Assembly (NCBI GenBank): GCA_902781545.1
Contig: CACZJR010000037.1
Coordinates: 1-38,306 of the forward strand
Reading direction: 5' to 3'
DNA length: 38,306 bases
From: an uncultured Spirochaetales bacterium
GTDB lineage: Bacteria; Spirochaetota; Spirochaetia; Sphaerochaetales; Sphaerochaetaceae
Shown: piece by piece, positions 8,349 through 13,515 of the stretch
How positions within the stretch are numbered: position 1 is the stretch's first letter
How the letters are laid out: each line of letters starts with the position of its first letter
Position numbers and translations under genes: made by a program
Notes under the pieces: model-generated
What the model was told of the DNA's origin: nothing
Databases searched by the model: none
What the model saw: the letters and a program-made list of their open reading frames with translations, nothing else

Positions 8349-8747
8349 ATGGCACTGACAAGTCATGAGGGGCAAGGGAAGAATGAGACGGTAGATCAGT
8401 ATATCGAAAGACAGGATGAGACCGTCAGACCTTATCTGAATGAAGTGCGGAAAATCATCCATGACGCTATTCCTGATGCACAGGAGAGGATCTCATGGAG
8501 CATGCCGACATTCTGGAAGGGGAGGAATCTCATTCATTTCGCTGCATCGAGAAAGCATCTGGGACTCTATCCGGGTGGAGAGGCAACGACGGTTTTCGCT
8601 GAGAAGCTGGCCGGCTATGATGTGAGCAAGGGGACAATCCGGATCCCATATTCCGCACCGATGCCTGAAAAGCTGATCTCAGAGATCGCGGTATGGTGTT
8701 ATAAGCAGTATGCAACCAATGATGATGGGGTTAAACAGGGACTGTGA
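8349..8747 (+). CDS. DUF1801 (YdhG-like) protein
   Basis: A 132-residue protein. TVDQYIERQDETVRPYLNEV, RKIIHDAIPDAQERISWSMP, FWKGRNLIHFAASRKHLGLY and KGTIRIPYSAPMPEKLI are the successive motifs of the DUF1801 family (PF08818), of which Bacillus YdhG/Fra is an iron-chaperone-like member. It lies three bases after the ACT gene and its stop is directly abutted by the GNAT start, so it belongs to the same operon. The biochemical role is uncertain. Confidence 0.9.
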   Translation: MALTSHEGQGKNETVDQYIERQDETVRPYLNEVRKIIHDAIPDAQERISWSMPTFWKGRNLIHFAASRKHLGLYPGGEATTVFAEKLAGYDVSKGTIRIPYSAPMPEKLISEIAVWCYKQYATNDDGVKQGL

Positions 8748-8748
8748 T

Positions 8749-9612
8749 ATGGGATACAGAATTGAGGATCTGACAAAGGAAGATGCAGGATATATCGGTG
8801 AGAAGATTAATGAGATTGTTCCGCATGAGGTGGATGCGGATGAGGAAGAGTTCGTCCTGAAGATCGAGAACGAGAACGGCAAGATCATCGGAGGTTGTAT
8901 TGCCCAGGCCTATGAATACCACTGGTCCAGGGTCTTATTAAAAGTGCTCTGGGTGGATGAGCGTTACCGTCATCAGGGTCTCGGGTCGATGATAATCCGT
9001 GAGGTCGAGCGCATTGCAAGGGAGAAAGGCTGCAGGGTAGTGACGCTCGGAACTGCCAGTTACATGGCCAGGCCGTTCTATGAGAAGCACGGCTACACGG
9101 TCTTCACGACTCTTAAGAAGCCGAACGGCTACATCAGCTATTCATTGGTCAAATATCTGGACAAGGACACACCTGATTATGTTCCCACAAACAACAGCGG
9201 CACCTGTTTCAGGGTCTCGTTCGGAAATGAAACCGATGCGGATGTCATCGAAAACGGCATAGACACATACAGTGAAGCCTATGAGCCGGAATGCGAGAGC
9301 ATTGATTACCATAAGAAACTTGTGGGCAAGGACGGCAGGTTCGCCGCTGGTGTCATAGCGGATGTGAACAAAGGTGAGTATGGTTTCATCGATGCCCTTT
9401 TTGTGGAGGAGCAGTTGAGACATCAGGGCCTTGGCACGTTCCTATTGAAGGAAGTGGAGAAACTGGCAAAGGAAAACGGTGCGTCCATGATCATGACTAG
9501 CGCCGGCGACTGGAACGTCGGTTTCTTCAAGAAGAACGGCTATCTGCTCAGAGGTGAGCTCAGGGATGTTCCGAAAGGACACGACTGCTACGAGCTCTAC
9601 AAAAACATCTGA
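8749..9612 (+). CDS. Tandem GNAT N-acetyltransferase
   Basis: A 287-residue protein with two GNAT domains in a row. The first has ERYRHQGLGSMIIREVERIA and the second EQLRHQGLGTFLLKEVEKLA; each RHQGLG is the pyrophosphate-binding motif A for acetyl-CoA, and each domain ends with an FYEKHGY or FFKKNGY motif B. The start at 8749 abuts the DUF1801 stop; an upstream ATG at 8710 would overlap that gene. The C-terminal 31 residues were found again as an isolated fragment at 2718-2822, so the gene had a paralogue. The acceptor substrate is unknown. Confidence 0.9.
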   Translation: MGYRIEDLTKEDAGYIGEKINEIVPHEVDADEEEFVLKIENENGKIIGGCIAQAYEYHWSRVLLKVLWVDERYRHQGLGSMIIREVERIAREKGCRVVTLGTASYMARPFYEKHGYTVFTTLKKPNGYISYSLVKYLDKDTPDYVPTNNSGTCFRVSFGNETDADVIENGIDTYSEAYEPECESIDYHKKLVGKDGRFAAGVIADVNKGEYGFIDALFVEEQLRHQGLGTFLLKEVEKLAKENGASMIMTSAGDWNVGFFKKNGYLLRGELRDVPKGHDCYELYKNI

Positions 9613-9614
9613 TT

Positions 9615-9868
9615 TTAGAAGATGAATCCCGCTGCCAGGTACATGAGCATTGTGATTGCCGCGGCAAGAAGTGCGGCGTCATGAATGATTCTGCGATCTG
9701 GATCATGTAGTATGTGAATCCGATTGCCGCGTTCACCTTTGCGAACAGGAAGGCCAGGACCATGAGGAGCAGCGAATTGAGCATGTTCTTGATGCCTGAT
9801 GTGAAGCAGGTCCAGTACTCAGATGCGGTCATGACTCCTTGTGCCAGATAGAGGATAAAGCACACCAC
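9615..9868 (-). pseudogene. Remnant of a Na+/H+ antiporter-like membrane protein
   Basis: On the minus strand the sequence reads GVMTASEYWTCFTSGIKNML, then NSLLLMVLAFLFAKVNAAIG and FTYYMIQIAESFMTP, a pattern found in NhaC-type sodium/proton antiporters. After FMTP the frame breaks: the ORF goes on as HFLPRQSQCS, while the neighbouring frame gives LLAAAITMLMYLAAGFIF and a stop at 9615, clearly the next membrane helix. The 5' and 3' parts of a 450-residue transporter are missing. A frameshifted fragment. Confidence 0.65.
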
Positions 9869-9917
9869 TTGGGGTTATCTGAATCCGCCGACTTTTTTGA
9901 CCATGGTTTTCAGACCT

Positions 9918-10100
9918 GTAGGCGGAATTTGGGAGACTCTGGTTTTCCGCCTATGAAAAAACATCTTTTTGAGCTTCTGCCATGATATTTATCGGCGGTA
10001 ATCAAGGATTTACTGAAACCCGCCTATCATAATTGCTGAAAAGAGGTTATAGGTGCAAAATAAATAGGCGGAAAACAATCAAACGTGTCTTTCCGCCTAT
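9918..10100. repeat. Three 37-nt inverted repeats at a 73-nt period
   Basis: Units at 9918-9954, 9991-10027 and 10064-10100 each start with ATAGGCGGAA (or a close variant) and end with its complement TTCCGCCTAT, leaving a 17-base centre that differs in each unit. The units are separated by exactly 36 bases, so they repeat every 73. Unit 3 has perfect arms, unit 1 has one mismatch, unit 2 several. Extra single half-sites occur near 9883-9889 and 10049-10060. No coding frame is visible in 9869-10133. The function is unknown; it could be a multi-site protein-binding array or a set of RNA hairpins. Confidence 0.7.
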
Positions 10101-10133
10101 CAGCTACAAATCTACGGTTGCAGATTATCCCCA

Positions 10134-10922
10134 TCAAGCCTGCTGGCTCTCAGAGGCCTTCTTCTTCCCGAATATCATGAAGAAGAAGTTCACAACGCTC
10201 ATGTAGATGCCTATGATCACAAGAGCAGGCATCAGGTAGAGATAGGGGACTGGAATCCAGCTGTTGAACAGGTCCAGCACGGGGTTACCCTCTGTCTCAA
10301 CTGAGAAGAAGTAGTTGACCTTGGGGCAGATCCCGGTCTTCCTGAGGAGCATGTTGAAGAGGAAGACGGTGAATGAGACGACAACTGTTGTCAGAAGTGT
10401 CAGCGGAATCTCCTTGAAGCGCGGCCTGAACAGCCCGAATGAGGCAATGGCGATGCTCTCTATGAAGACCATGTAGTGTGTGAAGTAGAATCCGAGCATC
10501 CTGGGCATGAGGAGCGAGTAGCCCGAGAATCCCGTGCTTGGCATGATCAGGGCCATGAGGGCTCCGAGAGGGCCGAGGAAGAAGCAGAAGTTCTGCAGGG
10601 CTCGGTTCTTTGTCCAGACAGCGATCGGGATGAGGATCATGTTGATGTTGCAGAGGTTCAGCGGAAGCTCGCTCCACCAGTTGAATCCGCCCATTGCCGC
10701 ATTGACGACCCTGTACTGCGCATCTATTGAGAGGAAGTACTTGTAGACAAAGAATACTACGACTGTGACGATGCATGTGATTGCAAGGACATTGCGCCTT
10801 GTCTTCTCATCCTTCTTCCTCAGAAGCAGCGATGAGACAACCAGCAGCGCTATGAACAGGCCGAAGCTGATCAGAAATATAGGATTAAATGGCCTGAGGA
10901 CCCAAAAGTTTTCTTTTTCCAT
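10134..10922 (-). CDS. YwaF/TIGR02206 family membrane protein
   Basis: A 262-residue integral membrane protein with about seven hydrophobic helices. NWWSELPLNLCNINMILIPI, then FCFFLGPLGALMALIMP and LGFYFTHYMVFIESI match the YwaF/TMEM164-like family (TIGR02206), which carries a conserved ELPLxxCxxxxxxxP motif and a histidine in the FYFxHYMV helix. The start at 10922 is preceded by GGAGAGGCA; the frame runs upstream to 11078 but without a ribosome binding site. Eukaryotic TMEM164 is an acyltransferase for ether phospholipids; the bacterial role is not established. It is transcribed away from the redox operon. Confidence 0.87.
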   Translation of the reverse strand: MEKENFWVLRPFNPIFLISFGLFIALLVVSSLLLRKKDEKTRRNVLAITCIVTVVVFFVYKYFLSIDAQYRVVNAAMGGFNWWSELPLNLCNINMILIPIAVWTKNRALQNFCFFLGPLGALMALIMPSTGFSGYSLLMPRMLGFYFTHYMVFIESIAIASFGLFRPRFKEIPLTLLTTVVVSFTVFLFNMLLRKTGICPKVNYFFSVETEGNPVLDLFNSWIPVPYLYLMPALVIIGIYMSVVNFFFMIFGKKKASESQQA

Positions 10923-11110
10923 TGCCTCTCCTTCCTGAAGGTATTCCCTGTAAACTGATTTTAGTCCCAAAAATGGAAATAATAAAGAAAAAGATGCAGG
11001 AGAGGCGAGATGGAGTCTCTTGAGAGCAATTGATGGGCCTCGGGAACGGGAAAAAGAAGTAATCCACAAAGAGCCCAAAACAGTTTATCATCGAACTATA
11101 TGGAGACCTC

Positions 11111-11434
11111 ATGATCACGGTCAACCTTTATTACACAGGAAAGAACGGTTCGGCAAGGGCGTTCTGCAATGAGATGGAGTCATCCGGGACCGCCGATGAG
11201 ATCAGATCGGAATCCGGGAATCTCAGGTATCAGTACTTCCAGTCGTTGTCTGACCCGGAGACGGTTCTCCTGATTGACTCATGGAGGGATCAGGCGGCTC
11301 TTGATGCCCATCATGCATCCCCGATGATGGCCAGGATCGCCGCACTCAGGGAAAAGTATGACCTGCACATGACCGTGGAGCGTTTTATCGGAGCCTCTGA
11401 CAACGGGGCGGACGAGAGATTCATAAGGAGATGA
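11111..11434 (+). CDS. Antibiotic biosynthesis monooxygenase (ABM) family protein
   Basis: A 107-residue dimeric alpha-beta barrel protein. RYQYFQSLSDPETVLLIDSW, RDQAALDAHHASPMMARIAA and a terminal VERF are the signature of the ABM family (PF03992), which includes quinol monooxygenase YgiN and many proteins of unknown use. GGAGACCTC lies just before the ATG. The stop overlaps the ATG region of the following flavin reductase gene, so it is the first gene of the plus-strand redox run. It probably acts on quinone-like or reactive small molecules, an inference from the family. Confidence 0.88.
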   Translation: MITVNLYYTGKNGSARAFCNEMESSGTADEIRSESGNLRYQYFQSLSDPETVLLIDSWRDQAALDAHHASPMMARIAALREKYDLHMTVERFIGASDNGADERFIRR

Positions 11435-11436
11435 CA

Positions 11437-12072
11437 ATGGGAAAGAGGATAGTGGCTGTCAATGCCGGTCCTAGAACCGGATGGAACACGGAGACACTTG
11501 TCTCAGAAGCCTCGCAAGGGGCAGTCTCCTCAGGAGCCGAGGTTGAGAGGTTCAACCTGTTCAGGCTCGAGAGGTACACAGGGTGCATATCATGCTTCGG
11601 GTGCAAGAAAGAGCGCTTCAAGGGACATTGCATCTGTAAGGATGCCCTTACTCCTGTCCTTGATTCCATCAGGGAGGCTGACGGCCTGATCATCGGCTCT
11701 CCGAATTACCTTGGGAACCTGACAGCGTCATTCAGGGCGCTCTATGAGCGTCTGATCTTCCAGAATCTGACCTATAACATTGAGAGCCCGTGCTGCAATG
11801 AGCACCCGATCCCTGTATTGCTCATCATGACCAGCAATGCGCCTGACTACATGTACGGGTCTCTTCTGAGCGACTATAAGCAGACCCTGAGCCGCTTTGT
11901 GGGCCCGACTGAGGTTCTGGTCAGCGGTGACACCCTCCAGATATGGGATTACGGGAAGACCGACTGGAGATGGACTATGTTTGACCCTCAGGCCAAGCTG
12001 AGGAGACATGAGACTGTGTTTCCGGAGGAGAGGAAGAAGGCATTTGAGCTGGGAAGGTCCTTGGCCTTGTAA
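11437..12072 (+). CDS. NADPH-dependent FMN reductase-like flavoprotein
   Basis: A 211-residue flavodoxin-fold protein. VAVNAGPRTGWNTETLVSEA is the FMN phosphate-binding loop and GLIIGSPNYLGNLTASFRAL the second flavin loop of the NADPH-dependent FMN reductase family (PF03358). Four cysteines in TGCISCFGCKKERFKGHCIC fit the iron-sulfur flavoprotein-like subgroup, where similar cysteines can hold an Fe-S cluster or disulfides. The ATG at 11437 has AAGGAG six bases upstream, while the ATG at 11431 is abutting it, so 11437 is preferred. Co-transcribed with ABM and glutaredoxin genes. Confidence 0.9.
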   Translation: MGKRIVAVNAGPRTGWNTETLVSEASQGAVSSGAEVERFNLFRLERYTGCISCFGCKKERFKGHCICKDALTPVLDSIREADGLIIGSPNYLGNLTASFRALYERLIFQNLTYNIESPCCNEHPIPVLLIMTSNAPDYMYGSLLSDYKQTLSRFVGPTEVLVSGDTLQIWDYGKTDWRWTMFDPQAKLRRHETVFPEERKKAFELGRSLAL

Positions 12073-12104
12073 GGATTGATATTTGTTCTGGGGAGAATTG
12101 AAAG

Positions 12105-12416
12105 ATGATAAAGATATACGGAATGCCGACATGCCCTTACTGCGATTATGTCCATGAGCAGGTCAAAGGCAGGGAAGATGAGTTTGAGTACATCAACATC
12201 GGAGAGGACATCCGCAACATGGGAGCCTTCATCAGGCTCAGGGACAGTAGCCCTGTCTTTGACAGGTGCAAGGAGATAGGGGATGTGGGAATTCCCGCCT
12301 TTGTCTTTGAGGACGGAAGGATCTCCATAGACCCTGCGGATGCGGGGCTGATTGAGTACGGCTCTCCGGCAGCATGCTCCATAGACGACCATAAGAGCGG
12401 AAGGAAGGGGTGCTGA
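12105..12416 (+). CDS. Glutaredoxin-like protein
   Basis: A 103-residue protein with MIKIYGMPTCPYCDYVHEQV; CPYC at residues 10-13 is the dithiol active site of glutaredoxins. VGIPAFVFEDGRIS supplies the cis-proline motif (GIPAF) and following strand. The C-terminus has two more cysteines (AACS and GC). It likely reduces disulfides or glutathione-type mixed disulfides in the cytoplasm. Its place in the redox run, 32 bases after the flavin reductase, supports a shared thiol/flavin stress role. Confidence 0.92.
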   Translation: MIKIYGMPTCPYCDYVHEQVKGREDEFEYINIGEDIRNMGAFIRLRDSSPVFDRCKEIGDVGIPAFVFEDGRISIDPADAGLIEYGSPAACSIDDHKSGRKGC

Positions 12417-12421
12417 TTCGT

Positions 12422-12592
12422 ATGGGCAGATACCCTATAAACAAAGAGTTTTTCCCTTACAGCAAGGGGGAAAAAGCCCCTTGCTTTGTGGACATCCACG
12501 GCGGAGGCTTTGACTCAAAGGTCAAGGCACCTACAACACAGAGGATGCTCCAAAGCAGGGTGAGCTTCATGAGAAGGCGGTTCGGCTCATGA
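12422..12592 (+). pseudogene. Collapsed alpha/beta hydrolase remnant
   Basis: A 56-codon frame beginning MGRYPINKEFFPYSKGEKAP and continuing CFVDIHGGGF before an unrelated basic tail. The start is that of acetyl-esterase-like alpha/beta hydrolases of anaerobes (xYPINKEFFPxxxF) and VDIHGGGF is their HGGGF oxyanion motif, but the roughly 60 residues that normally separate the two are gone and the catalytic serine region is missing. An in-frame internal deletion has therefore shrunk a 300-residue gene to this stub. It overlaps the DUF1848 start codon by four bases. Confidence 0.72.
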
Positions 12593-13515
12593 TCATCAAC
12601 ACCGGACAGCGCACTGATATCCCCGCATTCTATTCCCTGTGGCTCTCAAACAGGCTCAGGGAGGGCTTTGTGTGTGTCCGCAATCCGTTCAACCCCAGTC
12701 AGGTAAGCAGGTATCGTCTTGATCCGGATGTGGTGGATGTGATTGGGTTCTGCACCAAGAATCCCGCGCCTATGTTCACCCACATGGATCTTCTTAAGGA
12801 CTACGGGCAGTACTGGTTTGTCACAATCACACCTTACGGGCGTGACATAGAGCCCAATGTGCCTGACAAGCACAGGCTTCTGGATGACTTCAAGAGGCTG
12901 TCCGATTTTGTTGGGGTCAACGCCATAGGATGGAGATATGACCCGATCCTAATAACCGATAAATATGACATGGCCTATCATCTGCGCGCCTTTGAGAAGA
13001 TGGCGACAGAACTGGACGGGTACACGCACACTGCGGTGATAAGCTTCATCGACCTGTATCCCAAGGTGAGGAGGAACTTCCCTGAGGCCCGTGAGGTCCC
13101 GAGGGAGCAGAGGCTTGCCCTGGGCAAGGCGATCATCGAGATCGCATCTGGGCACGGGATGACCGTCAAGCCCTGCGCCGAGGGGGATGAGCTTGCCTCC
13201 TATGGCGCAGATTGCGGAGGATGCATGCGTATCAGTGACTACGAGAAGGCAATAGGAAGGCATATAATAGCCCCGAAGAAGAAGGGCGCCAGGGCAGAGT
13301 GCGCATGCTATCTCTCCTGCGATATCGGGATGTATAATACATGCAGGCATCTCTGCAGATACTGCTATGCGAACGCGGAGCCGCAGAAGGTTCTGGAGCT
13401 GAGCCGGCTCCATGATCCCCGGTCCCCGTTCCTGATTGGGAATTACATGGCAGGGGACAACATCCACGATGTCCCGCAGGTGTCATGGATTGACAGGCAG
13501 GATAGCCTGATTTGA
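12589..13515 (+). CDS. DUF1848 family iron-sulfur protein
   Basis: A 308-residue soluble protein of the DUF1848 family (PF08902), related in pattern to radical SAM enzymes. FCTKNPAPM and ITPYGRDIEPNVP in the N-terminal half and WRYDPI (residues 115-120) are conserved in the family. The C-terminal third holds a dense cysteine field: C196, C209, C212, C238, C240, C244, C252, C256 and C259, ending in the CRHLCRYCYAN motif, which resembles a CxxxCxxC cluster ligand. A metal cluster is likely. The ATGA overlap with the upstream remnant and 10-base gap to the macrodomain gene place it in the operon. DUF1848 is often seen near macrodomain/sirtuin genes, but the function is not established. Confidence 0.88.
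   Translation: MIINTGQRTDIPAFYSLWLSNRLREGFVCVRNPFNPSQVSRYRLDPDVVDVIGFCTKNPAPMFTHMDLLKDYGQYWFVTITPYGRDIEPNVPDKHRLLDDFKRLSDFVGVNAIGWRYDPILITDKYDMAYHLRAFEKMATELDGYTHTAVISFIDLYPKVRRNFPEAREVPREQRLALGKAIIEIASGHGMTVKPCAEGDELASYGADCGGCMRISDYEKAIGRHIIAPKKKGARAECACYLSCDIGMYNTCRHLCRYCYANAEPQKVLELSRLHDPRSPFLIGNYMAGDNIHDVPQVSWIDRQDSLI

Follow-up and report, generated by a model that had tools for sequence, protein, structure and literature searches.

Genes and palindromic units at the locus

The window, that is, the whole stretch of DNA analyzed (38,306 nt), is contig 37 of a fragmented rumen Spirochaetales MAG of 2.22 Mb in 128 contigs; this placement among rumen Spirochaetales agrees with the protein relatives of its TMEM164/YwaF-like gene. 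A GNAT acetyltransferase gene (PF00583; 8710 to 9612, + strand) converges on a remnant of a Na+/H+ antiporter gene and on an array of palindromic units. The remnant (PF03553; 9640 to 9868, − strand) corresponded to the middle part of the protein, covering profile positions 135 to 201 of 303, and its first half was absent on the side of the array. On the other side, a gene for a TMEM164/YwaF-like membrane protein was identified (10134 to 11078, − strand; PF14808, E-value 8e-29; TIGR02206 below its cut-off), whose true start codon may lie farther downstream than the listed TTG, and the array starts 33 nt past its stop codon. Both flanks were as the initial annotation had named them. No tRNA was found, and no Rfam covariance model matched the window at gathering thresholds. 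In addition, a 97-bp stretch at 2727 to 2823 showed 86% identity to the 3′ end of the acetyltransferase gene (9517 to 9613), and is either a remnant or a second copy.

The array consists of three palindromic units of 37 nt, given here on the + strand and labeled A (9918 to 9954), B (9991 to 10027), and C (10064 to 10100). Centers of 17 nt, separators of 36 nt, and a period of 73 nt are all exact, as previously described, and the differing sequences of centers and separators were likewise borne out, with identities at chance level (4–5 of 17 and 7–10 of 36 positions, respectively). The initial annotation had presented all three units as ATAGGCGGAA/TTCCGCCTAT pairs; the coordinates are correct, but the arms had been idealized. 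Only unit C carries perfect arms (ATAGGCGGAA – 17 nt – TTCCGCCTAT), whereas unit A has one arm change (GTAGGCGGAA – 17 nt – TTCCGCCTAT) and unit B, with degraded arms, has two changes per arm (ATCGGCGGTA – 17 nt – ACCCGCCTAT), which leaves pairing of the GGCGG/CCGCC core and two outer bases. The exact arm pattern occurred once in the window, against zero expected from shuffles. The array region folded better than shuffled sequences on both strands. A U-rich tail, defined as more than 3 T in 8 nt, followed only one of the 12 unit ends in the genome, namely that of unit C on the − strand, which is succeeded by TTATTTTG; unit C could act as a terminator of the TMEM164/YwaF-like gene on that strand.

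Two arm-like sites lie near the units, and both may be due to chance. A possible decayed right arm, ATCCGCCGAC (7/10 matches; 9883 to 9892, + strand), precedes the right arm of unit A by 62 nt and has no convincing left partner. The other, ATAGGTGCAA (8/10 matches; 10049 to 10058), resembles a left arm and precedes unit C by 15 nt.

Further copies in the same genome

Recurrence within the genome had been proposed as a check, and the palindrome was indeed found in two further places. A whole-genome search allowing up to 3 mismatches detected additional units at C25:4133-4169 (D1) and C104:1263-1299 (E), and a variable-gap search of the whole genome added a further unit at C25:4195-4231 (D2). 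The genome thus holds six units at three loci, in arrays of three, two, and one, a count taken from a fragmented MAG, in which contig ends often lose repeats. The other variable-gap match, C117:3569, was spaced differently and bore no visible relation to the units. A covariance model built from the six units recovered no further copies, the next matches having E-values above 1 and being read as coding DNA. Since the palindrome recurs with the same center length at two other places in the genome, the units represent a small repeat family and not an accident of one locus.

At all three loci, the units are intergenic and near gene 3′ ends. The two units on C25, which have a period of 62 nt, are located in a 255-nt convergent gap between an ordinary hairpin with a U-tail and another long hairpin, one of these two flanking hairpins carrying a run of seven T. 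On C104, the single unit fills a 77-nt gap on which an HD-domain gene and a thioesterase gene converge. Ordinary hairpins in the C25 gap (L061, 4044 to 4299) and in the gap at 1705 to 1783 of L058 have CTGCCGCAT beside the stem in common, and may represent a recurrent terminator form.

Constraint on the spacing of the arms

The center was exactly 17 nt long in all six units, and the center sequences were unrelated, with one marginal similarity, in opposite orientation, between the two centers on C25. The cores GGCGG and CCGCC were invariant. Arm pairs with at least 16 of 20 matches were counted in 365 kb of the same genome; as this DNA includes the copy-bearing contigs, the counts compare spacings and do not estimate copy number. 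Six pairs were found at spacing 17, in comparison with 0–2 for any other spacing between 3 and 40. Twenty Markov simulations yielded 0–1 arm pairs at spacing 17. The arm consensus was derived from the window, so that the window units match it by construction, whereas those on C25 and C104 do not. Based on the excess over other spacings and simulations, the constraint on arm position within the unit is real.

The period of 73 nt is a local feature, because the other tandem pair, on C25, has a period of 62 nt, whereas the 17-nt center is well supported. Two equal separators amount to a single coincidence, and, in view of the 62-nt pair as well, the exact 73 nt counts for much less than the invariable 17 nt. 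The difference between the two periods, 11 nt, is close to one helical turn, but this is no more than suggestive. The selection on arm position that had been put forward is therefore supported for the spacing within the unit (six copies at three loci with a 17-nt center), whereas an ordered array at a fixed 73 nt is not general, as the C104 unit is single. Changes in stem pairs showed no covariation beyond shuffles; thus, an RNA stem is not preferred over two DNA half-sites. As to the earlier choice between a protein site and a series of RNA hairpins, covariation does not favor the hairpin and most copies lack terminator tails; a protein is presumed to act on the units.

Distribution among relatives

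Conservation in close relatives, also raised earlier as a check, was not observed: the unit was absent from all 10 MAGs of the same genus (63–95% complete). First matches in two of them (G004 and G007) fell in coding-like stretches and were taken as chance. The 37-nt form was found only in the genome of origin when 139 genomes of the family, representing 22 genera, were examined. In the closest relative (G001), the gap matching that on C25 was much shorter and contained one ordinary hairpin and no unit. In two relatives, a U-tailed hairpin follows the YwaF-like gene instead. In another genome of the same genus (G005), approximately 6 kb of other genes separates the same acetyltransferase gene from a monooxygenase-like gene. 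When this acetyltransferase-to-monooxygenase-like interval was compared between the window (8349 to 13515) and G005 (L102, on G005:C81), the gene sets were quite different, and because of this difference in gene content the interval is regarded as a gene-turnover zone.

A related palindrome of 40 nt, GCAGGCGGAAT-N18-ATTCCGCCTGC, was identified in the sister genus g11, three genomes of which carry it in a single conserved convergent gap. Counted in the same way, its arms are 20 nt apart, compared with 17 nt in the units described here. The cores and overall plan of the two forms agree, but the centers match only weakly; the two forms may have a common ancestor. A conserved center in common with the g11 form was considered, but the similarity was weak, limited to units B, D1, and reversed D2, and unconvincing across all 36 comparisons. 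A fourth g11 genome (G093) harbored two copies, GTGGCGGAATC...GATTCCGCCAC, of 38–40 nt, in the same orientation and 1.5 kb apart (L119, on G093:C3, 11401 to 12965). They differ by one base and have unrelated flanks, and this near-identity despite the flanks indicates that the copies are recent. The two palindromes bracket an ATPase_2 gene (PF01637, 479 aa), so gene capture or insertion is possible at this locus.

Pattern scans of IMG/VR with the strict form gave no matches and hence no sign of a viral origin; matches to looser forms were interpreted as coding repeats or as hairpins without relation to the units. In G007, a gene for a Y1_Tnp-like HUH protein (PF01797, just below the cut-off) was found at L074 (G007:C50, 1880 to 3109), with short repeats upstream around GCAGTCTTGCAGTCC. 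It is a possible RAYT-type element within the same genus, and its repeats are unlike the units in the window. No relative of the G007 protein was detected in approximately 365 kb of the genome containing the units.

Comparison with known systems

REP families usually comprise tens to hundreds of copies per genome, and typical REP hairpins have a center shorter than the 17 nt of the present units. Published REPs are palindromes of 20–40 bp found mainly near 3′ ends, between convergent or co-directional genes; they include GTAG-tagged families tied to RAYT transposases, and several phyla, Spirochaetes included, are reported to have CGTC-tagged REPs (PMC3733652). With 37 bp and 10-bp arms, the units fall within this size range of about 20–40 bp, and they are extragenic and near 3′ ends at all three loci. 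They resemble GTAG REPs in palindrome size, in their position in extragenic 3′-end or convergent gaps, and in their occurrence as singles and small clusters. The GTAG tag, however, stands at the start of only three of the six units (A, D1, and E) and is absent from B, C, D2, and the g11 forms; the tag is incomplete and lies inside the stem, and the long center has a fixed length and a free sequence. Further differences are the low number of copies (six), the failure to find a link to RAYT in the approximately 365 kb examined, and the host phylum, which is outside those reported with GTAG repeats (PMC3733652). CGTC REPs are similar in being short extragenic palindromes of the same phylum without a known dedicated transposase, but no CGTC tag was found at the ends of the units.

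Other systems share single traits with the units. Rho-independent terminators likewise have GC-rich stems at gene ends; the units differ in lacking a U-tail at 11 of 12 ends, in the 17-nt loop, and in an arm sequence common to the loci. A CRISPR array would also show regular blocks of about 36–37 nt, alternately repeat-like and spacer-like, but was ruled out, since the units have just their 10-bp arms in common, with different 17-nt middles, and also occur as dispersed single copies. The attC core motif of integron cassettes is of the GTTRRRY type. Integron attC sites are comparable as hairpin sites with variable centers at gene ends, and in G093 a gene lies between direct copies; no core of this type was visible in the arms of the units.

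Interpretation of the palindromic units

Tandem duplication of one 73-bp unit in the distant past, with chance or weak selection preserving the arms, would account for the equal period of the window array, and the period, though not the unit, may still have arisen in this way. Separators and centers, however, retain no residual similarity; as a full explanation, duplication is largely refuted by the same arms and 17-nt center at the unlinked loci C25 and C104, and we consider it highly improbable. A role as transcription terminators of the flanking genes, or as hairpins with large loops at the 3′ ends of their mRNAs, is unlikely for the units. Their positions in convergent gaps, with the C104 unit alone in its gap, the U-rich tail of unit C on the strand of the YwaF-like gene, and the better folding of the region on both strands agree with such a role. 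The scarcity of U-rich tails among the unit ends argues that they are not generic terminators; moreover, the C25 pair has a separate hairpin on either side, of which one carries the seven-T run, and termination has no need for one exact loop length of 17 nt or for one arm sequence.

A rather unlikely but somewhat better-fitting explanation is that each unit is a binding site of two half-sites at a fixed distance for a chromosomal protein, such as a regulator or a nucleoid or chromosome-organizing protein. The site would be selected and immobile, and arrays would allow cooperative binding. The rigid 17-nt spacing with a random center in six copies, the approximately one-turn difference between the periods, and the absence of covariation in favor of an RNA stem are consistent with it. 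The sites are located at gene tails and not at promoters, however, and the arm distance within a unit, 27 bp or about 2.6 turns, is odd for a simple dimer. Absence from the 10 same-genus MAGs and from most of the family is also unlike a conserved chromosomal system.

We prefer to interpret the units as a low-copy, dispersed family of REP-like extragenic palindromes recognized via their two arms, a reading for which we judge the chances to be evenly balanced. It builds on the six copies, the constant center, the positions at gene tails, the absence from the corresponding gap of the closest relative, the similar g11 form with its two near-identical copies in G093, and an anatomy like that of published REPs; mobility and a recognizing protein are what we infer beyond these. 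The 37-bp unit is composed of two conserved arms (core GGCGG...CCGCC) and a 17-nt center of free sequence. As a very short palindrome, mobile or copied, it would have spread, or may still be spreading, to the gaps at gene ends. The recognized feature would be the pair of arms at fixed spacing, acting as two half-sites in duplex DNA or, alternatively, as a single-stranded hairpin stem that a REP-type (HUH/RAYT-like) enzyme or some other DNA-binding protein would bind, and the center would drift freely after copying. The six copies and the GTAG tag in half of the units are points against a REP family. Given the very low copy number, the incomplete tag, the long variable center, and the lack of RAYT in the part of the genome examined, the units are described as a REP-like variant and not as a proven GTAG REP. 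It is quite doubtful, but conceivable, that they represent a short mobile palindrome of a new kind, present in rumen spirochetes, which is specified by nothing but two arms at a rigid distance (17 or 20 nt), has a free center, and can bracket and perhaps move genes, as suggested by the direct copies on both sides of the ATPase_2 gene in G093.

With the units, the short extragenic palindromes gain a family from spirochetes that is unusual in the exact spacing of its arms around a randomized center. This feature suggests that two spaced arms are what is recognized, and it offers a direct handle on the protein involved. Should the unit move or bracket genes, it would also be relevant to how zones of gene turnover arise in uncultured bacteria of the rumen.
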